Shown: positions 21,445-35,787 of the stretch, one piece after another
Numbering within the stretch: the stretch's first letter is position 1
Layout: each line of letters begins with the position of its first letter
From: an uncultured Paracoccaceae bacterium
Lineage (GTDB): Bacteria > Pseudomonadota > Alphaproteobacteria > Rhodobacterales > Rhodobacteraceae
Length of the DNA: 64,000 nt
Direction of reading: 5' to 3'
NCBI GenBank assembly: GCA_937146765.1
Contig: CAKZRP010000075.1
Span: 62,001-126,000, forward strand
Notes under the pieces: model-generated
Seen by the model: only the letters and a program-made list of their open reading frames with translations
Databases searched by the model: none
What the model was told of the DNA's origin: nothing
Translations under genes and position numbers: made by a program

Positions 21445-22413
21445 CTAGACCAGCCCCGCCAGCCAGAGGTAGAGCGGCAGGCCAAGGGTGATGTTGAACG
21501 GGAAGGTCACTCCCAGCGACAGTGTGAGATAGATCCCCGCCTCCGCCTGCGGCAGCGCGATCTTCATCGCCGCCGGCACCGCGATATAGGAGGCCGAGGC
21601 TGCCAGCACCATCAAGAGGAACAGGCTGCCGGTCCCGAGGCCGATCAGAACGCCAAGGCACAGGGCAAAACCCGCGCCGATCACCGGCATCAGCAGACCA
21701 AAGGCAAAGAGCCCGGGGCTGAGCATCTGCCGGTTGCGCATCAGGCTGCGCCCTGCCGAGAGTCCCATGTCGAGCAGGAACAGGCAGAGGATTCCGGTGA
21801 AGGGCGTCACAACGAAGGGGGCGATCATCTCCATGCCCTTGTCGCGGGTGACGGCGCCAATCAGGAATGCTCCGGCAAGTAGCACGATGGAGCCGTTGGC
21901 CAGCAACTCGCGCAGCGGCACGTGACCGCCGCCGCCCGCGGCTCCGAACCGATGCGCGATCCAGAGCGCCGAGAGGATCGCAGGCACCTCCATCGCCGCG
22001 GCAACCGCCACCATGAAACCATCGGCCGCCAGACCGGTCAGCTCCAGGAGGCTGGAGGCCGCCACGAAGGTGACGATGGAGATCGACCCATAGTGGCCCG
22101 CCACAGCCGCCGCATTCATCGCGTTCAGCCGCGTCATCACCCGGAGCAGACCGAAGGCGGCAAAAGGGATCAGGAACGACAGCACGAGACCCGCGCCAAG
22201 CGCCGCAAAGACATCGGCCTGCAACCCGTGACCGGCAAGGCTGTTGCCGCCTTTGAAGCCGATGGCAAGCAGGAGATAGAGCGACATGAACTTGGCCGCC
22301 CCTTCCGGAATGGACAAGTCACTGCGCAGGACTGCGGCAACCAGTCCCAGCACGAAAAACAGGATTGTCGGCACCATGAGATTGCCGACAAGGCTTTGAA
22401 AAACATCTGGCAT
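21445..22413 (-). CDS. SbtA-like sodium-dependent bicarbonate transport family permease
   Basis: 'NLMVPTILFFVLGLVAAVLRSDLSIPEGAAKFMSLYLLLAIGFKGG' is characteristic of the SbtA/DUF897 family. Confidence 0.82.
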   Translation of the reverse strand: MPDVFQSLVGNLMVPTILFFVLGLVAAVLRSDLSIPEGAAKFMSLYLLLAIGFKGGNSLAGHGLQADVFAALGAGLVLSFLIPFAAFGLLRVMTRLNAMNAAAVAGHYGSISIVTFVAASSLLELTGLAADGFMVAVAAAMEVPAILSALWIAHRFGAAGGGGHVPLRELLANGSIVLLAGAFLIGAVTRDKGMEMIAPFVVTPFTGILCLFLLDMGLSAGRSLMRNRQMLSPGLFAFGLLMPVIGAGFALCLGVLIGLGTGSLFLLMVLAASASYIAVPAAMKIALPQAEAGIYLTLSLGVTFPFNITLGLPLYLWLAGLV

Positions 22414-22491
22414 GAAAGAGCTCCGTTTCAGCGTTGCCCCCTGTTGCCGTAAAACTTTCCATAGCTAAAATACAAAAAACCCACTCCACGA

Positions 22492-22506
22492 ATAGCATGA
22501 GGCTAT
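22492..22506. promoter_or_regulatory. LysR-type box (ATAGC-ATGAG-GCTAT; T-N11-A)
   Basis: 5-bp inverted repeat with T-N11-A geometry, just upstream of the LysR gene and divergent from the SbtA-like gene. Confidence 0.5.
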
Positions 22507-22509
22507 GAA

Positions 22510-23418
22510 ATGAGGCCCACCCTGCGGCAGATGGACTACATTGTCACCGTGCACCGGCTGCGCAGCTTCGGACTGGCGGCCGACACATTGAATGTCAGCC
22601 AGCCCTCGCTGTCCAACCAGATCGCAGCTGTCGAAGCGGATCTGGGTGTGCGGCTGTTCGAACGAGGCCGTCTAGGCGCGGAGGCGACGGCCAAGGGGTT
22701 GGAGTTTGTGCGCCATGCCCAGCGCATACTTGCGGAAGCCGAAACCCTGCGCCGGGTGATGACCTCCGACGTGGCCTTTGGCGGTCGCTTACGGTTGGGC
22801 GTACTGCCGTCAATCGGTCCCTATCTCTTGCCGCAGAGCATGCGCGCCTTGCATCTGTCGCAACCCGACCTGCGGGTGGTGGTGCGCGAGGAAAACACCC
22901 AGAGCCTGAACGACGGCCTGCGCAGCGGTCGGTTCGATGCCATTCTCTCCACCCCCGAAGATCACCCCAACACCCGCCAATACCCGCTTTTTGTGGAACC
23001 TCTCTGGGTGGCGCTGTCGCTGGATCATGACCTGTCCACCAAGACGCGCATCGGGGCGGCCGACCTGTCCGGGCAACGTCTGCTGACGCTGGATCGTGGT
23101 CACCGGTTGGCACGGATCGTCTATGGGATCGCCGGAAAAAGCGGTGCCGTGGTCTCGGACGACTATGAAGGCACCAGCCTCGATTCCATCTTGCTGATGG
23201 CGGCGACTGGCTCCGGCATCGCCGTTCTGCCCGACCTCTTCGTCCGCAGACAGGCGGTGCACCGAAGCGAGGTCAAGGTTCTACCGCTCGCGCTGGAAGA
23301 TGCCAACCGGACCATCAGCCTGTTGCTGCCGGATGACCGCGCCCCGGGGCCCGGCGGGGAACAACTCGCCGAAATCCTGCGCCAGAGCGCCCGTGACCTG
23401 AACATGCAAATGGCCTGA
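22510..23418 (+). CDS. LysR-family transcriptional regulator (OxyR-like)
   Basis: 'LRQMDYIVTVHRLRSFGLAADTLNVSQPSLSNQIAAVEADLGVRLFERGR'. Confidence 0.9.
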   Translation: MRPTLRQMDYIVTVHRLRSFGLAADTLNVSQPSLSNQIAAVEADLGVRLFERGRLGAEATAKGLEFVRHAQRILAEAETLRRVMTSDVAFGGRLRLGVLPSIGPYLLPQSMRALHLSQPDLRVVVREENTQSLNDGLRSGRFDAILSTPEDHPNTRQYPLFVEPLWVALSLDHDLSTKTRIGAADLSGQRLLTLDRGHRLARIVYGIAGKSGAVVSDDYEGTSLDSILLMAATGSGIAVLPDLFVRRQAVHRSEVKVLPLALEDANRTISLLLPDDRAPGPGGEQLAEILRQSARDLNMQMA

Positions 23419-23545: not shown

Positions 23546-23570
23546 TTAGTTCGGTTATAGAACGAACTAA
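23546..23570. promoter_or_regulatory. Inverted repeat upstream of the ROK regulator (TTAGTTCG-N9-CGAACTAA)
   Basis: Perfect 8-bp arms, 7 bp upstream of the ROK ORF start. Confidence 0.65.
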
Positions 23571-23577
23571 CAGAGTC

Positions 23578-24804
23578 GTGAGAAATCCGGTGACCTCCCA
23601 ATCCAAAATCTCCCGCCGCATGTCGCAGAGCGCCGTCATCCAGGCGATTGCAAATCTTGCTCCGGTGTCGCGGGCCAGCGTCGCCAAGGTCACCGGCCTG
23701 TCAAAACAGACCGTCTCGGAGATCGTTGGAAACCTCGAAGTCGAAGGTTGGATACGGGAGGTCGGGCAAACCGAAGGTCATATCGGCCGACGCGCCGTGG
23801 TCTACGAAATTTCACCCGCCGCTGCGACAGTGGCGAGTGTCGATCTTGGCGGGACAAAGGTGCGGGTGGCCCTGTGCGACCTGCGCGGCAAGGTGCTGGC
23901 AGAGGAGATCGAACCCACCGCCCCGGCCGGAGGGAGCGACGTGGTGGATCAGATCGCGCGCTTGGTCCGCCGCGCGGCGGCCGCTCCCGGCGCGGGCATC
24001 GGCCTGCTGCAGACTGCGGTCGTTGGCGTGCCCGGCGTTCCCGATCCCAAGAGCGGCGCGATCCTGATGGCCCCAAATATCGTCGGGATCGATCGCATCG
24101 ATCTGGCCGGAAGCCTGCGGGAGATGCTGGGGGTCGAGGTCTTTGTCGAGAATGACGTCAACCTCGCTGCCCTCGGCGAACATTGGCTGGGCAATAGGGG
24201 TGAGGGTGATGATCTGGTCTTCATCTCAGTGGGAACCGGCATCGGCGCTGGCATCGTGATGGGCGGCACCCTGCTGCGGGGACACTCCGGCGCGGCGGGC
24301 GAGATCGGGTATCTGCCGTTTGGAACCGATCCTTTCGAACCGGAAAGCCTCGGCACCGGGGCCCTTGAACGCGCCGCCGCCACCGAAGCTATCATTCAAG
24401 GGTTTGAAGCCCGCAGCGGGCACAGGCTGACCGTGCCCGCGGTCTTTGATGCAGCTGCCGCTGGCGACCAACACGCGCAGGAAACCTTGGATGCGGTGTC
24501 AAGACAGATTGCCCGCGCGATCTGCGCCATGGTGGCGATCGTTGACCCCTCCGTGGTGGTGATCGGCGGCTCCATCGGTGCAAGAGAGGAACTGCTGGCC
24601 CGGATTCGCCATTTTGTGAGCCTCTGCTATCCCCGCCCGGTGACCGTGGAACGCTCGCATCTCGGCGATCATGCGGCCCTTGCCGGCGGTGCCTCCATCG
24701 CCTTGTCACATCTGCACCTCACCCTCTTTGCCGAAGGCCAGAGCGGCGCTCGGATCGCGGTGCCACCCCCTGCCATCGAAGACTTCAAGGCTGGTGCAAG
24801 ATGA
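23578..24804 (+). CDS. ROK-family transcriptional repressor with sugar-kinase-like domain
   Basis: N-terminal wHTH 'VSRASVAKVTGLSKQTVSEIVGNLEVEGWI', then ROK domain 'VDLGGTKVRVALCDL' and 'GTGIGAGIVMGGTLLRGHSGAAGEIGYLPFG'. Confidence 0.9.
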   Translation: MRNPVTSQSKISRRMSQSAVIQAIANLAPVSRASVAKVTGLSKQTVSEIVGNLEVEGWIREVGQTEGHIGRRAVVYEISPAAATVASVDLGGTKVRVALCDLRGKVLAEEIEPTAPAGGSDVVDQIARLVRRAAAAPGAGIGLLQTAVVGVPGVPDPKSGAILMAPNIVGIDRIDLAGSLREMLGVEVFVENDVNLAALGEHWLGNRGEGDDLVFISVGTGIGAGIVMGGTLLRGHSGAAGEIGYLPFGTDPFEPESLGTGALERAAATEAIIQGFEARSGHRLTVPAVFDAAAAGDQHAQETLDAVSRQIARAICAMVAIVDPSVVVIGGSIGAREELLARIRHFVSLCYPRPVTVERSHLGDHAALAGGASIALSHLHLTLFAEGQSGARIAVPPPAIEDFKAGAR

Positions 24805-26063
24805 GCGCGCCCCTGCTCCAGCGCCTTGCCGCGTCACAGGACGCTGCCGCCGATCTCGCGCTCCTGAAGGCGGCGCTGGCGGTGGAAAGCGTGACCGGAA
24901 ACGAGACGGGGTTTGCGCGGTTTCTCGAAGGTCAACTCGCCCCCCTTGGCCTGAGCACCGGGCGGGGTGAATTCCGGCCCGGGCGGGAAAACGTCTGGGG
25001 GGTGTCGGCACCGGAGGTTGGTCCAAGGCTGATGATCCTCGGTCATACCGACACCGTGCATGTGCGCGGCTGGGAAGATCATTGGGACACTCAGGCGCCT
25101 GGTGACCCGCGCCGCAATCCCTTTGGCGGCTCTGAGGCGGAAGGGCAGGTCTGGGGTCGGGGTGCCAGCGACCTCAAGGGTGGCATCTGCACCGCCATCG
25201 CGGCCCTGCGCCTGTTGCAGCGGGCGGGGATCGCTCTTGATGGGCAGGTGACGCTGGCTTTTATCGGCGACGAGGAAAGCGGCGAACCCGGCAGCGGCGT
25301 CAGCGCCGGAGCCAAGGATCTGGTGCGTCGCATTCTGGCGGGCGAGATCCCGCGCCCAGACTTCGGCCTTTATGTGGAACCGACACGGCTGGATGTCTAC
25401 ACCGCCCAGATCGGCTTCTTCATTGCCGAGATCACGCTGACCGGCCGGACCGCCTATTTCGGCACGCCCGAACTGGGGGTGGATGCGCTCAAGGCCACCC
25501 ATGCGGTGCTTGCGGCACTCTGGGCGCATGAGGCCGAGCTGGCCGCAGGGCCGCGTCACGATCTGGTCGGCGCCTCCTCGCTTCTGGTGACCGGGATCGA
25601 GGGCGGCGGTTTTATCGCGGTGCCGGGTCACTGCAAGCTGTCGCTGATCCGCAAGCTGCGCCCCGGCGAGGCGCTGGACGATGCGGTTGCGGCCTTTGAG
25701 GCGGCGGTGAAAGCGGTAGATCTGGCAGAGGGGATCACGCTTCAGATTGACTATCCGGCAGGACGCGATCACCCGCAGGGCGGCTCTCCGGTGGAAATCC
25801 CGCAGGACACCGCCCCGGCCCGGCTATTGGCAGAATGCGTCCAACTGGCCCGCCCCGGGGCAGGTCAGATTGGCGGCGCGCCTTATTGGTCCGAAATGCC
25901 CTTCCTGACCAAGCAGATCGGTTGTCCCACGGTCTATTGCGCGCCCGGCGACATTGCTGTGGCCCATACCTACGAGGAGAGGATCGAGGTGCAGGAATAC
26001 CTCGCCGCGATCCGCGCCTTTGCCCTGTTCATCGCCCGCTACTGCGGCGGTGCAGACACCTAA
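24801..26063 (+). CDS. M20-family metallopeptidase/deacylase (ArgE/DapE-like)
   Basis: 'RLMILGHTDTVHVRGW', 'WGRGASDLKGGICTAIAALRLL', 'GDEESGEPGSG'; overlaps the ROK stop by 4 nt. Confidence 0.9.
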   Translation: MSAPLLQRLAASQDAAADLALLKAALAVESVTGNETGFARFLEGQLAPLGLSTGRGEFRPGRENVWGVSAPEVGPRLMILGHTDTVHVRGWEDHWDTQAPGDPRRNPFGGSEAEGQVWGRGASDLKGGICTAIAALRLLQRAGIALDGQVTLAFIGDEESGEPGSGVSAGAKDLVRRILAGEIPRPDFGLYVEPTRLDVYTAQIGFFIAEITLTGRTAYFGTPELGVDALKATHAVLAALWAHEAELAAGPRHDLVGASSLLVTGIEGGGFIAVPGHCKLSLIRKLRPGEALDDAVAAFEAAVKAVDLAEGITLQIDYPAGRDHPQGGSPVEIPQDTAPARLLAECVQLARPGAGQIGGAPYWSEMPFLTKQIGCPTVYCAPGDIAVAHTYEERIEVQEYLAAIRAFALFIARYCGGADT

Positions 26064-26108
26064 GACCAAGAAAAACATATAAAACAGATCCAACCTGTGG
26101 AGGTTCCC

Positions 26109-27161
26109 ATGAAACATCTCAAACAGACCCTGCGCGGCGCTGCCCTTCTGGCGCTGCTATCCGCCCCGGCCCTTGCCGAAACCACCGGGCCCGGCGGCGA
26201 GGCGGCAACGCCCTCGTCCTCTGTCATCGTCGACGACGCAGTTGTCGCCAAGGTGCAGGCGGGCGGGCACAAGGCGGCGTTGCTCTGGCACGACCAATCC
26301 GATTTCGTGAATGCGGTGACGGCGGGGGCCAGCGATGAATTCGCCCGCCTCGGCATCGAGGTTGTTGCCGTCACCAGTGCCGGTTTTGACGCAGCCAAGC
26401 AGCGCAGCGACATCGAGACCGCGATGGCAAAGCAACCCGATATCATCTTGTCGCTGCCTCTTGATCCGGTGACTTCCGCTGCCGCCTTTGCGGAAGCCAA
26501 GGAGGCCGGTGTGGCGCTCTCTTTCCTGTCGAACCTGCCCGCAGGCTATGAACATCCGCAGGACTACGCCGCCATCGTCACCGACGATCTGTTCCAAATG
26601 GGCAAGCAGGCCGCCGATGCTCTGGCCGCCTCGATGGGGGGCAAGGGCACCGTCGGCTGGATCTACCATGACGCCACCTATTACGTGACAAACCAGCGCG
26701 ACAATGCCTTCAAGGCGACGATCGAGGCGGATTACCCCGACATCTCCATCGTGGCGGAACAGGGCATCAGCGACCCGGCCCGCGCCGAAGACATCGCCAA
26801 TGCGATGCTCCTGAAGAACCCCGATCTGGGCGGCATCTACGTGACCTGGGCCGGTCCTGCCGAGGGCGTGCTGGCCGCGCTGCGCGCCAATGGCAACACG
26901 AGCACCAAGATCGTGACGCTGGATCTCTCCGAACCGGTTGCCCTCGACATGGTGCGCGGAGGCAATGTGGCAGCCATCGTCGCGGACGAGGCCTATGAGC
27001 TGGGCCGCGCCATGGCAGCCTCGGCGGTGCTGGACCTGCTCGGCGAAAAGGTGCCGCCCTTTGTCGTGGCTCCTGCAGTCACCGTGACGGCAGACAATGT
27101 CGTCGAGGGCTGGAAACGCTCGCTCAACGCCGCGCCGCCCGCAAGCCTTGCGTCGCAGTAA
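26109..27161 (+). CDS. Sugar-type ABC transporter substrate-binding protein (type 1 periplasmic binding fold)
   Basis: Signal peptide MKHLKQTLRGAALLALLSAPALA; 'SDIETAMAKQPDIILSLPLDPVTSAAAF'. Confidence 0.88.
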   Translation: MKHLKQTLRGAALLALLSAPALAETTGPGGEAATPSSSVIVDDAVVAKVQAGGHKAALLWHDQSDFVNAVTAGASDEFARLGIEVVAVTSAGFDAAKQRSDIETAMAKQPDIILSLPLDPVTSAAAFAEAKEAGVALSFLSNLPAGYEHPQDYAAIVTDDLFQMGKQAADALAASMGGKGTVGWIYHDATYYVTNQRDNAFKATIEADYPDISIVAEQGISDPARAEDIANAMLLKNPDLGGIYVTWAGPAEGVLAALRANGNTSTKIVTLDLSEPVALDMVRGGNVAAIVADEAYELGRAMAASAVLDLLGEKVPPFVVAPAVTVTADNVVEGWKRSLNAAPPASLASQ

Positions 27162-27194
27162 GCCTCCCCGCCTCAACGGACGCGGCATCTGCGC

Positions 27195-28187
27195 ATGGCG
27201 CGTCCGGCCTTCTCCTCTTTGACGGATCCGGCGATGACTCTGGCCTATCAAAAACTCAAATCCTTCGATCTGCAGCAGGGCGTGATCTACATCGGCTTTC
27301 TGGCGATCTTCCTCTTCTTTGCGCTGACCTTGCATGACGACGGCTTTCTGACCAGCCGCAACCTGACCAACATCGTGCTGCAAACGGCACCCGCGACCAT
27401 CATGGCGATCGGCCTCGTTTTTGCCCTGTCGGCAGGTGAAATCGACCTCAGCTTCGGCTCGGTGGTGGCGGTCTCGGCCCTGTCGGCGGCAGTGGTGATG
27501 CAGCATTTCCCGATGCCGGTTGGCATTCTTGCCGGACTTGGCGCCGGGCTTGCCATCGGCGCCTTTAACGGCGCATTGGTGGCCTATGGGCGGCTGCCCT
27601 CCTTTTTGGTGACGCTTGCCACCATGGGGCTTTTTGCCGGCATTGCCCGCACGATGACCGACCTGCGCTCGATCCCGGTGCTGAACGAGAATTTCACCGG
27701 CCTGTTTGGCTCCGGCAAGCTCCTCTCCGTGCCCTCGCTGGTGATCTGGACCGCGATTGCGGTGGGCATCGGCCATATCGTCTACCGCAACACCCGCTTG
27801 GGCGCTCATGTTCTGGCGGTGGGCGACAATGCCCGCGCAGCCCAGGTCTCGGGCATCAAGGTGGCGCGCGTGCGGCTCTATGTACTCACCCTCTGCGGTG
27901 GCTGTGCCGGTCTGGCGGGGCTGCTTTACGCGGGGCGCCTGCAGGCGGCGAAATACACCCTCGGTGAGAGCGACCTGATGACGGTGATTGCTGCCGTGAT
28001 CGTCGGCGGCACCGCGCTGAACGGTGGCAAGGGCTCGGTCATCGGCGCGCTGCTCGGCTCGCTCCTGATGGGGATGCTCAACAACGGGCTGATCCTGATG
28101 GGTCTCGACGTCTCCGATCAGATGATCGTCCGGGGCCTCATCATTCTTCTCGCGGTCGCAGTTTCCCTGCGCGACACCAGCCGCTGA
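27195..28187 (+). CDS. ABC transporter permease, RbsC family
   Basis: 'TIMAIGLVFALSAGEIDLSFGSVVAVSAL', 'VIAAVIVGGTALNGGKGSVIGALLG'. Start may instead be 27234. Confidence 0.9.
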   Translation: MARPAFSSLTDPAMTLAYQKLKSFDLQQGVIYIGFLAIFLFFALTLHDDGFLTSRNLTNIVLQTAPATIMAIGLVFALSAGEIDLSFGSVVAVSALSAAVVMQHFPMPVGILAGLGAGLAIGAFNGALVAYGRLPSFLVTLATMGLFAGIARTMTDLRSIPVLNENFTGLFGSGKLLSVPSLVIWTAIAVGIGHIVYRNTRLGAHVLAVGDNARAAQVSGIKVARVRLYVLTLCGGCAGLAGLLYAGRLQAAKYTLGESDLMTVIAAVIVGGTALNGGKGSVIGALLGSLLMGMLNNGLILMGLDVSDQMIVRGLIILLAVAVSLRDTSR

Positions 28188-28214
28188 ATTGGCGGACTTT
28201 CGGAAGGACACGAC

Positions 28215-29426
28215 ATGTTTCTTGATCTTCTCATCCGGCGCAATCCTGCCTTTGCCGAGGCCGCAATGGCGCTGCACCAGCAGGGTGCGATCCCGGCCAA
28301 TGCCTATGTGCTCGACCTCGACGCGGTGGAGCGCAATGCCCGGCTGATCCAGACAGAGGCCGACCGTCTGGGCCTCACCGTCTTTGCCATGACCAAACAG
28401 GTGGGACGTCACTCGGGCTTCTGCGAGGCAGTGATGGCGGGCGGTATCACCCGCTCTGTCGCGGTGGACATGGCCTGCGCGATGGCCTGCGATAGGGCCG
28501 GACTGAAGACCGGCCACCTGGGACACCTGGTTCAGGTGCCCGCGCGCGAGGCTTCTTATGCCGCCACCCATCTGCGACCCGACTACTGGACGGTGTTTTC
28601 CGACGCAAAGGCAGGCGAGGCTGCCGCCGCCGCCCATGCCGCGGGGCGCAATCAGGCGCTGATGGCGCGGATCCAGACGGAGGGCGATACGTTTTATCGC
28701 GGCCACGAGGGGGGCTTTGCCGCCGGGGAAATCACCGCCGTTGCCGACCGTCTCGACACGCTGGACGGAGGGCATTTCGCAGGCATCACCACCTTTCCGG
28801 CGCTGCTGTTTGACCCCGAGACACGTCGGGTGCGACCGACCCCGAACCTCGCCACGCTCAACCGCGCGGCCGAAGCGCTGGCAGCAGCGGGACGCCATGG
28901 CATCGCGGTGAACGCGCCTGGCACCACCTCCGCCACGGTTCTTTCCGCCCTTGCCGAGGCCGGCGCGACGCAGGTGGAGCCCGGCAACGGGCTGCATGGC
29001 ACCACGCCCCTGCACGCGGTGGAGGATCTGCCGGAGGATCCGGCCGTGCTCTACCTTTCCGAGGTTTCGCATCACCACGGCGGCAAGGCCTATTGCTTTG
29101 GCGGCGGCCTCTATATCGACCCGGTCTTCCCCAGGTATCAGGTGCAGGCCTTGGTCGGCGCGACCCCGACCACCCAACGCCATGCCCTGCGCGACGTGGA
29201 GATCCCGGATTACTCTGCCATCGACTACTACGCGATGATCGAGGCCACAGGACCCGAGGCACCAAAGACGGGAGATACCGTGGTCTTCGGCTTTCGCGGT
29301 CAGGCGTTTGTCACCCGCGCCTTGGTGGTCGGCCTGCGGGGCGTCGCCTCGGGTGCGCCGCGTGTCACCTCGATCGAGAACGGCTTTGGAGATCCCGTTC
29401 ACTGGGCCGGAGGGCTGGGCGCATGA
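28215..29426 (+). CDS. YhfX-like PLP-dependent enzyme (alanine-racemase-like fold)
   Basis: 'NAYVLDLDAVERNARLIQTEADRLGLTVFAMTKQVGRHSGFCEAVMAGGITRSVAVDMACAMA' and 'EVSHHHGGKAYCFGGGLYIDPVFP'. Confidence 0.75.
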   Translation: MFLDLLIRRNPAFAEAAMALHQQGAIPANAYVLDLDAVERNARLIQTEADRLGLTVFAMTKQVGRHSGFCEAVMAGGITRSVAVDMACAMACDRAGLKTGHLGHLVQVPAREASYAATHLRPDYWTVFSDAKAGEAAAAAHAAGRNQALMARIQTEGDTFYRGHEGGFAAGEITAVADRLDTLDGGHFAGITTFPALLFDPETRRVRPTPNLATLNRAAEALAAAGRHGIAVNAPGTTSATVLSALAEAGATQVEPGNGLHGTTPLHAVEDLPEDPAVLYLSEVSHHHGGKAYCFGGGLYIDPVFPRYQVQALVGATPTTQRHALRDVEIPDYSAIDYYAMIEATGPEAPKTGDTVVFGFRGQAFVTRALVVGLRGVASGAPRVTSIENGFGDPVHWAGGLGA

Positions 29427-30172
29427 CCGGTTCCACGCCTGTTCTGTCGCTTGCCAATATCCACAAGGCCTTTGACGGGGTCATTGCGATAGAGGATTTC
29501 TCCCTCGACCTTTATCCCGGCGAAATTGTTGCACTCGTGGGCGACAATGGCGCGGGCAAATCGACCCTGATCAAGATGATCTCCGGCGTTTACAGCCCCA
29601 CCTCGGGCACCGTGCGGCTCGAAGGGGATGAGGTCAGCTTTGCCGACGCCAGCTCCGCGCGCAGTCGCGGTATCGAGGTGGTCTATCAGGATCTCGCTTT
29701 GGCCGATCAACAACCGGTCTACATGAACATGTTCCTTGGGCGCGAGCTGACCAAGCCCCCCTTTGGCCTGTTGGACAAGGAGCGGATGCGCCAGGAAACC
29801 CAGGCGCTGGTGGATGAACTGGACGTGCGGATCCCCTCTGCCAGCTCGACCATCCGCGACCTCAGTGGAGGGCAGCGGCAAGGTATCGCCATTGCGCGCG
29901 CAACCCATTGGGCCAGCAAGCTGATCCTGCTCGACGAACCCACCGCGGCGCTAGGCGTGGCCGAGACCGCCCGGGTCGAGGAACTGGTGGCCCGCCTGCG
30001 CGCCCGAAACCTCGCGATCCTGATCATCAGCCACAGCCTCGATCAAGTGTTCCGCCTGTCGGATCGCATCTGCGTGCTGCGCCGGGGTCAACAGATCGGC
30101 ATTCGCAAGACCGTCGAGACCAACAAGAACGAGATCGTTTCGATGATCACCGGGGTTCACGCGCCGGCATAG
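29423..30172 (+). CDS. Sugar ABC transporter ATP-binding protein, single nucleotide-binding domain
   Basis: Walker A GDNGAGKST, 'LSGGQRQGIAIARA', 'LLDEPTAALGVAE'; true start MTGSTPVLS overlaps the YhfX-like stop by 4 nt. Confidence 0.92.
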   Translation: MTGSTPVLSLANIHKAFDGVIAIEDFSLDLYPGEIVALVGDNGAGKSTLIKMISGVYSPTSGTVRLEGDEVSFADASSARSRGIEVVYQDLALADQQPVYMNMFLGRELTKPPFGLLDKERMRQETQALVDELDVRIPSASSTIRDLSGGQRQGIAIARATHWASKLILLDEPTAALGVAETARVEELVARLRARNLAILIISHSLDQVFRLSDRICVLRRGQQIGIRKTVETNKNEIVSMITGVHAPA

Positions 30173-31531: not shown

Positions 31532-33688
31532 TCAGTTTCCCGCGCCAGCGGCAGCATCCAGCAGCCCCTTCATCGCCGCAGCCGCCTCGGGCGCCTCCCG
31601 CTGCAGATCCTCAATCACCTTGGACAGGGCTTCGGCTGGGTTTGGCGACCGGCGCGGGGCAGTGTCGCGGATCGAGCGGCGGATCAATTCCAGCGCGGCC
31701 AGGGTTGCCTCCGGCGCCGCCTGGAAATGGCAGAGTAGCCCGGCCTGAACCGCGATGCAGGGCCCGTTCATCGGTACCCATTGGTGCGGGTTGAGCACGA
31801 TGTCTTCCCCCTCCTGCCCATCATCCCCCGGCGCGAGGAAGGTCATTTGCACCCCACCCTCCTGTCCGGCGGAGGCGGCTCCCGCTGTCGCAGCCACCCG
31901 CGTGGGCTGATCCACGGACCATCCTTGCGGCACGATGGTCATGATCCCCACCGCCTCGTCATGAAAAACGCAGCTGCCGGTCTGCTCGCAGGTGAAGCCT
32001 GAGGTGACGGCGTCCCGGCCCGAGCCCTCGACGGCCTCGGGCTGCGACTGCCCGCTAGAGGCCTGGGCCTGCAACGCATCTGTGTCCCCCGTTCCAGCCA
32101 CGGCACTGGCGGAGGTTGCCGGAGTTGGCGCATTCGCCGAAGCCTCTTCGTATTGTACGCCCACAGCCACATGGAGAGGCTGGCGCGCCGCGATGCTCTG
32201 CGGCCCGTCCACGTCGGAGAAGATGTAGACCAGCTCATAGCTTCCCGCGTCTTGCGGGGCGAGCAAAGGCTTGCGCGGGCCATATTCATTGTCAAAGGCC
32301 GCTTCCATGTAGAGGCTCTGGTCCCAGCTGTAGAGCTGCCCGTCTTTCCAGACCTCAAGCCGATCCGCATGGGCAAAACCACCTGTCACCGTCACGGGGA
32401 TTTCCGCCCCTGGCGCCACGGCGTCGGGGGCATTGAGGACAACCTCCGGCCGATCCATGATGTCCAGCGGGAAGAGGGCCAAGGTGTGGGACAGGTCCTC
32501 CTCGCCGTAACGGTGGAAGGCAACCATATACGTCCCGGGATCAGTGGGCAGGTTCAAGCGCCCCACATAGGCGCCCTCAAGTCCGCTCTGGCTGCTCCAG
32601 GTCACCGCACGGTCCGTCAGCGCGCGAGCGTCTGCCGGTAACAAAGTGAGCTGGAAGTCCGCACCGCCCAGTGCCAGCCCTGCGCGGGTGATACGGAAGG
32701 GGAAAATGCCGCTGGCTGCAGCCCGCATGGCGCCGAGGGGCGGCACCAGTTCAAGGCTCGGCAAGTTCCCCTGGAAAGGCACATAGATCGTGCGCGCCTC
32801 GCCCGCGACCAGAACCTCCCGTGCCTCGCCATGGCCCTCCTCCCCTGCGTCCGCAGTCAGGATCCAGGCGCCGGGCGCCAGTTCAACCGGCAGACTGTCC
32901 GCATAGGCAAAGTCCAGCACGCCAAGTTCGACCATCGCAGTGCCCGTTTCGTGCACACCGCGAAAGGACACCCGGGCCGGGCGCCCGGCGATGTCATGGC
33001 GCAAGGTCAGATGCGCCTGGGCCTTGCCCGGCGCGACCTTCTCTGCCTCCGTCGAAGCGGTCGCAGTGGCACCAGTCCGGATCAGCGCTTCCGAGAGTTC
33101 CTGGCCAGACTGCGTGGACAGCACCAGACCGCCGGTTGCTTCAGCCACACAAGCGATCTGCTGGACCTCTGTCGCGCTGAGCCCAAAGCCAACCACATGC
33201 GCCCGCAGCGCGACCCCGGCGGCGGACAGTTCCTTTGCCACCGCGCAGGGATCGCCACCGCAGGTTTCCAACCCATCGGTCACCAGAACAATATCCGCCG
33301 CTTCAGCCGTCACAGGGATCTGGGCTGCGGCAAGGCGAAGCGACTCCGCGAGGGGCGTCTTGCCCTTGGGCGACAAGGCCCGAAGCCGAGCGCCCAGAGC
33401 TGCGGTGTCGTGCAGCGCCACGGGAGCCACAACCGCGATATCGGCACAGTCACCCTTGCGATTGTGCCCATAGGCGATCACACCTAGAGGTACATCACCG
33501 GAACGGGCACCCAGAAAGTCGGTCAGGACATCCCGCGCCACTTCGATCCGGGACTGGCCCTCCGGGAGTTCGGTCCACATGGAGCCGGATGCATCGAGAA
33601 TCAGGACAGACGCCCGATCAACCTCCTGCTCTGCCGACAAACTGGACGCCCAGAGACCAAAAACAACAGCAAACCCAATACCACGCAT
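31532..33688 (-). CDS. Secreted von Willebrand factor A domain protein
   Basis: Signal peptide MRGIGFAVVFGLWASSLSA; MIDAS 'VLILDASGSMW'; 'IVLVTDGLETCGGDPC'. Confidence 0.88.
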   Translation of the reverse strand: MRGIGFAVVFGLWASSLSAEQEVDRASVLILDASGSMWTELPEGQSRIEVARDVLTDFLGARSGDVPLGVIAYGHNRKGDCADIAVVAPVALHDTAALGARLRALSPKGKTPLAESLRLAAAQIPVTAEAADIVLVTDGLETCGGDPCAVAKELSAAGVALRAHVVGFGLSATEVQQIACVAEATGGLVLSTQSGQELSEALIRTGATATASTEAEKVAPGKAQAHLTLRHDIAGRPARVSFRGVHETGTAMVELGVLDFAYADSLPVELAPGAWILTADAGEEGHGEAREVLVAGEARTIYVPFQGNLPSLELVPPLGAMRAAASGIFPFRITRAGLALGGADFQLTLLPADARALTDRAVTWSSQSGLEGAYVGRLNLPTDPGTYMVAFHRYGEEDLSHTLALFPLDIMDRPEVVLNAPDAVAPGAEIPVTVTGGFAHADRLEVWKDGQLYSWDQSLYMEAAFDNEYGPRKPLLAPQDAGSYELVYIFSDVDGPQSIAARQPLHVAVGVQYEEASANAPTPATSASAVAGTGDTDALQAQASSGQSQPEAVEGSGRDAVTSGFTCEQTGSCVFHDEAVGIMTIVPQGWSVDQPTRVAATAGAASAGQEGGVQMTFLAPGDDGQEGEDIVLNPHQWVPMNGPCIAVQAGLLCHFQAAPEATLAALELIRRSIRDTAPRRSPNPAEALSKVIEDLQREAPEAAAAMKGLLDAAAGAGN

Positions 33689-33748
33689 CACCAAGATCCA
33701 ATCAGAAACACCTGACTTGCCAGTGTGGCGAGGATTGCCGTTAATTCT

Positions 33749-33768
33749 ACTTATCAATTTTCATAGGT
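33749..33768. promoter_or_regulatory. lux-box-like 20-bp dyad (ACTTATCAATTTTCATAGGT)
   Basis: 20-bp imperfect inverted repeat (7 of 10 half-site positions) starting AC and ending AGGT, just upstream of the LuxR-type gene. Confidence 0.4.
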
Positions 33769-33777
33769 ATTTAAGCC

Positions 33778-34494
33778 ATGCAGACCTCGCTTGCGATCGG
33801 CGCGCTTGTGGAAGCTCTCGCCGCGCCTTCGCCCCCCGAAGACCTTTGGCACCACGCGACGACCTATCTGGAGCTCAAAGGCTTTGATCGGGTGTTTCAC
33901 ATCGATTGCAGCCAAGGCAGAAGCAGACCGACGGTACGAACCACCATGCCGCCCGGCTTTCTTGAGACCTATCACTCAGAACAGTTCGCCCGCCATGACC
34001 CGTTCCTGACCTACTGCCTTCCATCAAAGCACAGCATCTCCACGGGCATCGCCTATGTCGACGATTACGACTATCTGAGCCGCAAAGCGCGGGATCTGAT
34101 CGAACACGCGGCCCAATCGGGCTTTCAGGCTGGGTTTTCCCTCACAACCTCCCGGTCCGGCGGCCAGGGACTTGAAGGTTGGAATGTCGGCTCCTCCCTG
34201 CCCCGCAAAGAGGTTGAACAGATCCTGCTCCACTCCGGGACCGAGATCCGCCTTGTCCTGACTGCCTTGAAAGGGCGGCTCTCGGCACGGGAACACAGGC
34301 TGACCCGGCGCGAACATCAGGTCATGCAGCTGTTGATCGAAGGGCTTCGAACCAGGGAAATCGCCAATCGTCTGGATCTTCGCGAGGTCACGGTTGAATT
34401 CCACATCGCCAATATCCGCCGCAAACTGAAAGCGCCCACCCGGGAATCCGCCGTCGCCCGTTACTTGACGCACGCCGGGACAAACGCGCCGTAG
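33778..34494 (+). CDS. LuxR-family regulator with autoinducer-binding-like N-terminus and GerE HTH
   Basis: 'LTRREHQVMQLLIEGLRTREIANRLDLREVTVEFHIANIRRKLKA' HTH; N-terminal 'YHSEQFARHDPFLTYC' resembles autoinducer-binding domains. Confidence 0.88.
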   Translation: MQTSLAIGALVEALAAPSPPEDLWHHATTYLELKGFDRVFHIDCSQGRSRPTVRTTMPPGFLETYHSEQFARHDPFLTYCLPSKHSISTGIAYVDDYDYLSRKARDLIEHAAQSGFQAGFSLTTSRSGGQGLEGWNVGSSLPRKEVEQILLHSGTEIRLVLTALKGRLSAREHRLTRREHQVMQLLIEGLRTREIANRLDLREVTVEFHIANIRRKLKAPTRESAVARYLTHAGTNAP

Positions 34495-34620: not shown

Positions 34621-35583
34621 CTATCGGGCGGCCAGGTAGTTCCGCGCACCGATCAGACCGAAATTCGGCTGGTGATAGAGATGCAGCGGCAATTCCTGCC
34701 GCCAGGCGGTGTGCCGTCCGCCCGCGTTGAAGGCATCGACAAAGGCCGCATCAAAAATCCACGGGTTCGCCGCCGCCACGCCGCCGGTGACAAAGACTCC
34801 GCCCTTGGCGGCAAAGACCAGTCCAAGATCGCCCGCAACCGAGGCGAGATATTGAGCAAAGAGCGCAACAGCACGCATGGCGGCGGTGTCCAGTTTCGCC
34901 TTGGCGGATTCAAAGATCTCCGCGCCGGTTTCCAAGGGGGCCGTCAGCTCCATGCTCTTGGCCACCGCGCGATAAAAGAACGGCAGGCCAGTGCCGGAGA
35001 GAATCGCTTCGGCCTCGACCACCAGACCGGGGCCCATGCCGACCTCGGGCCATTCCTCACGCAGGGCCTCAAAGATCGGAACTTCCTCGGGCGTGCGGGG
35101 GGCAAGCGCCACATGGCCGCCCTCGCCCGGCACCACACAAGGATCGCCATTGGCCCAGACCAGCGCGCCCACACCGAGACCCGTACCGGGGCCGATGATC
35201 AGGCAGGGCTCCTTGGGAAATTTCGCCTCGCCTTGCAGGGTGGTCACATCGCCCGCACTCACCGTGGCGAGCGACCAGGCGGCGGCCTCAAAATCATTCA
35301 GCACCTTGGCGCGTTCGATCTTCAGCGCGGCGGCGATGCCCCGCTCGGAAAAGCTCTGATGGGCATTGGTCAGCTGCACGGAGCCATCACGCACCACGCC
35401 CGCCGCTGCAATCACCGCCCGACCGGGGGCCGAGCCGCGATGGGTGGCAAAATCCGCACAGGCCTGTTCGAGGTTCAGCTCGCCCTTGGTGTTGTAGCGC
35501 GCCTGCTCGAGGATCTCGCCCTCGGCATTGACGGCCGCGAGCCGCATGTTGGTACCGCCAACGTCAGCGATGAGATTCCACAT
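34621..35583 (-). CDS. glk: Glucokinase
   Basis: 'MWNLIADVGGTNMRLAAVNAEGE', 'LIIGPGTGLGVGALV', 'VPGEGGHVALAPRTPEE', 'GGVFVTGGVA'. Confidence 0.93.
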   Translation of the reverse strand: MWNLIADVGGTNMRLAAVNAEGEILEQARYNTKGELNLEQACADFATHRGSAPGRAVIAAAGVVRDGSVQLTNAHQSFSERGIAAALKIERAKVLNDFEAAAWSLATVSAGDVTTLQGEAKFPKEPCLIIGPGTGLGVGALVWANGDPCVVPGEGGHVALAPRTPEEVPIFEALREEWPEVGMGPGLVVEAEAILSGTGLPFFYRAVAKSMELTAPLETGAEIFESAKAKLDTAAMRAVALFAQYLASVAGDLGLVFAAKGGVFVTGGVAAANPWIFDAAFVDAFNAGGRHTAWRQELPLHLYHQPNFGLIGARNYLAAR

Positions 35584-35787
35584 TTCTACCCCTCCAGCCT
35601 GTCCCCGCCACAGCGATCCGGCCCGATACTCAGCCTGTCCCTTGCCAGAGGTCAAACAGGCAAGCGCCGCAGAGGTCAAGCCCTGCGCGCGCTTTCACGC
35701 CCGGTTTGCGTCCAATCCTGCAAAGTTGGCGCCACTCTTGCGCCAAGCCCTGCCGAAGTGCAAGCGTTAGCGCAAACAGATGAGGAT

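Follow-up and report, generated by a model that had tools for sequence, protein, structure and literature searches.

A conserved operon built around a YhfX-like pyridoxal phosphate enzyme, a candidate module for amino-sugar catabolism

Introduction

A 64,000-nucleotide stretch of an uncultured Paracoccaceae bacterium (GenBank assembly GCA_937146765.1, contig CAKZRP010000075.1, positions 62,001 to 126,000; hereafter the window, numbered from its first letter) carries a six-gene operon encoding a ROK-family protein, an M20 hydrolase, an ATP-binding cassette (ABC) importer and a pyridoxal 5'-phosphate (PLP) enzyme resembling YhfX. The Escherichia coli yhf operon (yhfS-yhfT-yhfU-php-yhfW-yhfX-yhfY-yhfZ) likewise has a YhfX homologue, and its yhfX has as a neighbor the gene for Php, a phosphotriesterase (PTE)-family protein. 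However, it lacks the CUT2 importer and the ROK, M20 and NagB proteins and has YhfT and YhfU, the mutase YhfW and the aminotransferase-like YhfS; the window operon contains no counterparts of yhfS, yhfT, yhfU, yhfW, yhfY or yhfZ. The yhf operon is uncharacterized in RefSeq, where E. coli YhfX is still labeled "putative PLP-binding protein," although a crystal structure of that protein (4kbx) has existed since 2014. A search of the open-access literature returned no functional study of YhfX, YhfW or the phosphotriesterase homology protein, nor of these in combination with ROK, M20 or NagB.

Two described routes share part of their logic with this operon. Nag catabolism, which uses a kinase or a phosphotransferase system (PTS), NagA and NagB, resembles the operons of relatives that contain NagB-I or NagB-II together with a ROK kinase, and glucosamine-6-phosphate (GlcN-6-P) would be the common end point; unlike it, these operons have no NagA, their hydrolase is of the M20 or PTE family, and an additional PLP enzyme is always present. 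In the ong pathway of Pseudoalteromonas for N-acetylglucosaminate (GlcNAc1A), OngC, a D-serine-deaminase-related fold-type III PLP enzyme, uses a deacylated amino-sugar acid (PMC9537276). That pathway also combines an N-deacylase, such a PLP enzyme and a sugar kinase, but its hydrolase family, importer, regulator and kinase are different, and it is without NagB. As far as our tools show, the operon described here is conserved and undescribed; we see in it not a new category but a variant of amino-sugar catabolism, and we lean, by a small measure, toward a module that breaks down an N-acylated amino sugar, or a conjugate of an amino sugar, with entry at GlcN-6-P.

Results

The six genes lie co-directionally on the + strand at 23578–30172, and a Pfam search supported all six assignments. 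A ROK protein with an N-terminal helix-turn-helix (HTH) of the MarR_2 type and a ROK kinase-type domain (23578–24804; PF00480, 7.9e-55) is followed by an M20 metallo-hydrolase, a predicted N-deacylase (24801–26063; PF01546, 2.2e-26, with M20_dimer), a CUT2 (RbsB-class) periplasmic binding protein (26109–27161; PF13407, 3.6e-39), a CUT2 permease (27195–28187; PF02653, 2.9e-38), the YhfX-like fold-type III PLP enzyme (28215–29426; PF21279, 3.5e-26, and PF01168, 1.7e-14) and a single-domain sugar-type ABC ATPase (29423–30172; PF00005, 1.8e-32). Compared with relatives such as L005 (MPAQSKISRRM), the GTG at 23590 is the more likely start of the ROK gene than 23578. An earlier sequence-only reading had described these six co-directional genes, a transporter of the sugar (RbsBC) class and a YhfX-like gene placed between the permease and ATPase genes, and the coordinates and Pfam matches agree with it on all three points. 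It had also reported several 4-nucleotide overlaps; these are real, but there are only two (24801–24804, ROK/M20; 29423–29426, YhfX-like/ATPase), the remaining intergenic gaps being 27–45 nucleotides.

To follow the gene set, we searched a genome collection with the YhfX-like protein, which gave 80 loci, and continued with tblastn and gene calling; gene content was counted in the 58 complete loci with enough flanking sequence, which are related by descent. The order ROK-M20-binding protein-(second binding protein)-permease-YhfX-ATPase was found throughout Rhodobacterales and Rhizobiales and was identical in Acidimicrobiia and in another alphaproteobacterium (L184), and Actinomycetes carry variants of the gene set. 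Ruegeria sp. TM1040 (L134) is among the relatives that have the operon. The proposal of an uncharacterized, tightly linked operon was thus borne out, the genes being kept together in Rhodobacterales, Rhizobiales and Acidimicrobiia. A YhfX-like domain was present in only 4 of 385 genomes of the class and 11 of 399 of the phylum, the 11 including gammaproteobacterial yhf-type operons; because the domain is so rare, the module is a patchy accessory trait.

Related operons frequently contain a gene for a GlcN-6-P deaminase-like protein. A NagB-II-like SIS-domain gene was found in 20 complete loci and NagB-I in 13, with both in none; the gene mostly lies directly 3' of the ATPase gene, and in L052 upstream of the binding-protein gene. 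Rhodobacterales differ among themselves in this respect, with NagB-I in L024 and L031 and NagB-II in others. The L024 protein clears the TIGR00502 cut-off (263.7 versus 236.9), NagB-II is the best match of the SIS-domain proteins (E values of 1e-52 to 1e-77 in the members tested), and solved relatives of the latter include the glucosamine-6-phosphate deaminase 8eol. Since NagB-I and NagB-II, unrelated folds at the same place, have only the conversion of GlcN-6-P to fructose-6-phosphate in common, this exchange says more about the end product than any other observation. Elsewhere in the genome of the window, a sialic-acid-type cluster with nanE and a TRAP transporter encodes NagB-I, a nagA/murQ cluster encodes NagB-II, and these enzymes could complete the route. 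Two amino-sugar clusters of the same genome are L112 (6612–12964; NagA-NagB-ROK kinase-NanE-TRAP) and L113 (3637–9870; MurQ-like/NagB-II/NagA with a CUT1-type importer).

We next compared the ROK proteins. In alignments, the window protein retains VDLGGTK (the ATP loop, DxGGTK), the catalytic ND aspartate (D193) and GTGIG, whereas the same motifs are degenerate in E. coli NagC and Mlc. Operons of Actinomycetes hold two ROK genes, one for a divergent HTH-ROK regulator and one for a ROK kinase without HTH, the stand-alone kinases within operons being those of L037, L040 and L153–L161. In a tree of 31 rows, which omits XylR and has some long branches, the alphaproteobacterial ROK proteins, including that of the window, were sister to the stand-alone kinases of Actinomycetes (support 96/95) and clustered apart from the actinobacterial regulators, NagC and Mlc. 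Identity in the kinase domain was 44–49% to the closest stand-alone kinases and ∼30% to the actinobacterial regulators. Because the kinase motifs are kept and the protein groups with stand-alone kinases, it is probably an HTH-kinase fusion, a repressor and pathway kinase in one. The sequence-only reading had found no sugar kinase, which is probably wrong, and the lack of sugar enzymes does not hold as a general trait; operons of relatives include NagB-I or NagB-II and ROK kinases. Acidimicrobiia operons contain an additional, second ROK kinase, a relative of polyphosphate glucokinase.

Immediately upstream, at 23546–23570, lies the palindrome TTAGTTCG-N9-CGAACTAA (no strand), already described as a perfect inverted repeat with an N9 spacer. 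This perfect 8-N9-8 repeat occurs once in the window, against 0.02 sites expected by chance, and the 4.7-Mb genome has no second site, allowing up to three mismatches; with a single site, the predicted regulon is this operon alone. Among 32 alphaproteobacterial loci with a ROK gene, 31 have an operator-type site 5' of that gene (at least 14 of 16 defined positions matched, at most 120 bp upstream), and just one further site occurs across the 618 kb of these loci. A diverged palindrome occupies the equivalent position in Acidimicrobiia. The layout is that of the Bacillus subtilis xyl operator TTAGTTTGTTTGGGCAACAAACTAA, which is bound by the ROK-family protein XylR (PMC12034463; also PMC12285236). 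We therefore assign the palindrome as a predicted autoregulatory ROK (XylR-type) operator. XylR and the window protein are alike in the operator (TTAGTT-YG-N9-CR-AACTAA) and the HTH-ROK architecture; the window protein differs in its intact kinase motifs and in having free-standing kinases as the nearest relatives of its domain, a comparison to which XylR itself did not belong.

The metal-ligand motifs of the M20 enzyme (GHxDTV, RGxxDxKGG, DEE, EPT and a His near the C terminus) are all present and conserved. The dimer-domain His (GxxaHxGxPExGxNA), however, is replaced by an invariant Tyr (AYFGxPE) in 50 of 50 orthologues, whereas the equivalent residue is His when aligned with the M20 structures 1cg2 and 7uoi. 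Because of this invariant replacement, we assign the operon enzymes to a specialized M20 subfamily. An M20 enzyme was found in 45 of the complete loci (44 from the locus tally and L005 by tblastn) and a PTE-family hydrolase in 11, with no locus having both. The PTE protein, for which the nearest solved structure is E. coli Php (1bf6), stands in for M20 in Actinomycetes, and one genome (G399) has one operon of each type (L037, PTE; L079, M20). Such a replacement could be functional because PTER, a mammalian N-acetyltaurine hydrolase, shows that phosphotriesterase-related proteins can act as amide hydrolases (PMC11374699), although PTER is mammalian and its substrate is different.

The YhfX-like protein consists of an Ala_racemase_N barrel (PF01168) and a YhfX-like_C domain (PF21279), both above the cut-off, and matches 4kbx at 1e-75 with ∼38% identity. 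K61, the predicted Schiff-base lysine, is invariant in 52 sequences, including gammaproteobacterial YhfX. With an AlphaFold 2 model (predicted local distance difference test score, pLDDT, 92.8), Foldseek ranked 4kbx at the top, followed by D-threonine aldolases, beta-hydroxyaspartate aldolase and D-threo-3-hydroxyaspartate dehydratase, with alanine racemases and chicken D-serine dehydratase somewhat lower. The closest fold after YhfX itself is thus the D-threonine aldolase/D-serine dehydratase family (PF14031; Foldseek 2.7e-16). The likeness stops at the metal site: the protein has no match to PF14031, the C-terminal metal-site domain, and in an hhalign comparison with D-serine dehydratase/aldolase homologues from the genome of the window and relatives (E 2e-15), the His/Cys metal ligands (PNHxC) align with Gln363 and Phe365, residues that do not vary among YhfX proteins. 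Because the metal-binding residues are replaced by these invariant ones, YhfX is predicted to be a metal-free fold-type III PLP enzyme, and we ruled out a metal-dependent D-threonine aldolase or D-serine dehydratase. The family name "alanine racemase," given to orthologues in public plasmid records, was also dropped, since there is no match to the Ala_racemase_C domain and the C-terminal domain is of the YhfX type. A diverged second YhfX paralogue lies within or beside the operon in L073, L079, L152 and L131.

The importer combines an RbsB-class binding protein with a BPD_transp_2 permease, as CUT2 systems do. The model of the binding protein (pLDDT 91.3) was nearest to 5dkv by Foldseek, which also returned the ribose-binding protein 2ioy. 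A double-domain ATPase of the RbsA type (∼500 amino acids) is customary in CUT2 importers, though not universal; that of the window is unlike it in having one ABC domain (249 amino acids), and among NCBIfam models it matches best the first half of YtfR, XylG and RbsA. In L003, L019, L027, L029, L032, L135, L136 and others, a single permease gene is accompanied by two adjacent binding-protein genes that belong to one family, which suggests two ligands or ligand forms.

Three loci (L077, L137 and L048) have an APC amino-acid permease in place of the ABC importer, although for two of these the flanking sequence is limited on one side. All three keep the kinase and YhfX, two have NagB-II, and none has M20 or PTE nearby. 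A YhfX that worked on the acyl or amino-acid part set free by the hydrolase would be expected to be lost along with it. Because YhfX stays with the kinase where the hydrolase is absent, these loci are suggestive of YhfX belonging with the kinase/NagB branch and not with the acyl group. A Planosporangium locus (L131, 3377–6900) combines two YhfX copies, a ROK kinase, a SIS protein, a ribulose/allulose-phosphate 3-epimerase (RPE) and an amidohydrolase that is D-aminoacylase-like by sequence (a superfamily match only); this cluster may serve the use of a related sugar. E. coli-type yhf operons occur in Gammaproteobacteria, Cetobacterium and some actinobacterial genomes, and an amide hydrolase with YhfX is a recurring pair. 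Of two yhf-type operons, that of an actinobacterium (L133, 6687–15260) lies next to a PTS enzyme I/HPr-like fusion and that of Cetobacterium (L138, 2994–11357) includes an amidase. A gene after the L029 operon that resembled nagA by eye proved to be PhnM-like in a model search, lies beyond a 400-bp gap and was not counted.

Discussion

Gene content, conservation, the operator, the kinase motifs and the mutually exclusive NagB and hydrolase types are what the sequences show. We infer the substrate class of the proposed pathway, its order of steps and its induction as follows. An N-acyl compound would be imported by the CUT2 ABC importer, and M20 (in Actinomycetes, the PTE-family hydrolase) would take off the acyl group to leave a free amine. 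The ROK protein would release the XylR-type operator when ligand is present and would phosphorylate the sugar. The YhfX-like enzyme would then act on the (phosphorylated) amino sugar, at the carbon that bears the amine, to give GlcN-6-P, which NagB-I or NagB-II would convert to fructose-6-phosphate and ammonia. Since YhfX would be superfluous for free glucosamine itself, an isomer or a conjugate is the expected substrate; candidates are a C2 epimer (mannosamine-type) and a glycosyl-amino acid cleaved by elimination. The YhfX step would be simplest as an epimerization at the amine-bearing carbon, but we hold an epimerase to be unlikely. The broader proposal, that YhfX is a new PLP-dependent amino-sugar (phosphate) epimerase, isomerase or lyase feeding GlcN-6-P while the operon repressor doubles as the sugar kinase, is tentative and somewhat more probable than that. 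Least certain are what YhfX catalyzes and which acyl group is removed. OngC provides a precedent for a fold-type III PLP enzyme on a deacylated amino-sugar acid (PMC9537276), which we count in favor. The sequence-only reading had likewise proposed import followed by deacylation, which the present data support; of its substrate options (N-acylated amino acid, amino sugar or conjugate), comparative genomics, through the NagB enzymes and ROK kinases of relatives, favors the amino sugar.

Several observations weigh against this pathway. No nagB gene is found in the window, where no remnant of one was detected 3' of the ATPase gene, or nearby in 25 of the 58 complete loci, and with loci related by descent the counts are not independent. 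The NagB-II-like members score ∼180–260 bits, below the 430-bit NCBIfam equivalog cut-off, and could have another amino-sugar phosphate as their substrate. The usual substrates of M20 enzymes are N-acyl amino acids, the APC permeases suggest an amino-acid-like ligand, and we know of no case of PLP-dependent epimerization of an amino sugar. Finally, the E. coli yhf operon has the same YhfX and a PTE-like hydrolase but neither NagB nor a ROK kinase.

In a rival reading, the ligand is an N-acyl amino acid to which an amino sugar is attached, such as an O-glycosylated D-serine/threonine-like conjugate. Here M20 or PTE would deacylate the amino-acid nitrogen, ROK would phosphorylate the sugar, YhfX would eliminate the sugar phosphate as a D-serine-dehydratase-like lyase, and NagB would deaminate it. 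The typical substrates of M20 and of the D-aminoacylase-like amidohydrolase of L131, the APC permeases and the fold nearest to D-threonine aldolase and D-serine dehydratase all speak for such a conjugate, and loss of the hydroxyl-activating metal would suit a better leaving group. Yet NagB would require a free amine on the sugar, for which there is no deacetylase or glycosidase, and no such compound is evident in nature; we regard this reading as doubtful, on a par with the epimerase.

A route like ong, in which N-acetylglucosaminate from oxidized chitin is deacylated and then deaminated by a fold-type III PLP enzyme to a keto-deoxy acid before a kinase acts, would follow the OngB/OngC logic of deacylase, PLP deaminase and sugar kinase (PMC9537276). 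Its ligand would be both a sugar and an N-acyl-D-amino acid, accounting for importers of both the sugar and the amino-acid type. It would leave the GlcN-6-P deaminases of related operons without a role, however; KdgK, RidA, the D-aminoacylase OngB and an SSS importer are not among the six genes, and YhfX does not have the metal site that characterizes the D-serine dehydratase family. We consider this route improbable. Still less probable is the amino-acid option of the sequence-only reading, in which no sugar takes part, M20 would deacylate an imported N-acyl amino acid and YhfX would racemize the product, as the alanine racemase N-terminal fold and the plasmid-record name of the orthologues would have it. 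The sugar-class CUT2 importer, the XylR-type operator, the ROK kinases and NagB of related operons and the retention of YhfX where the hydrolase is absent all argue against it.

As far as we have searched, this operon is the first context that narrows the substrate of YhfX, placing it after an amide hydrolase, with a sugar kinase on one side and a glucosamine-6-phosphate deaminase on the other. Solving the operon would name a family common to E. coli, roseobacters, rhizobia, sponge-associated Acidimicrobiia and soil actinomycetes, together with their shared nutrient. If true, the fusion of a repressor with the kinase of its own pathway would make an elegant sensor.

Neighboring genes

Scans for sigma-70 promoters and terminators gave no signal exceeding chance, and no Rfam elements were found in the window. 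A divergent pair of genes for a LysR regulator and Sbt_1 (Na+-dependent bicarbonate transporter superfamily) adjoins the operon at 21445–23418 and is not kept beside it in relatives. A few kilobases downstream, a Glk-type glucokinase is encoded on the − strand (34621–35679); it could in principle phosphorylate sugar and is unlinked to the operon in relatives. A VWA-domain protein (31532–33757) adjoins a LuxR-type autoinducer-binding regulator (33778–34494).

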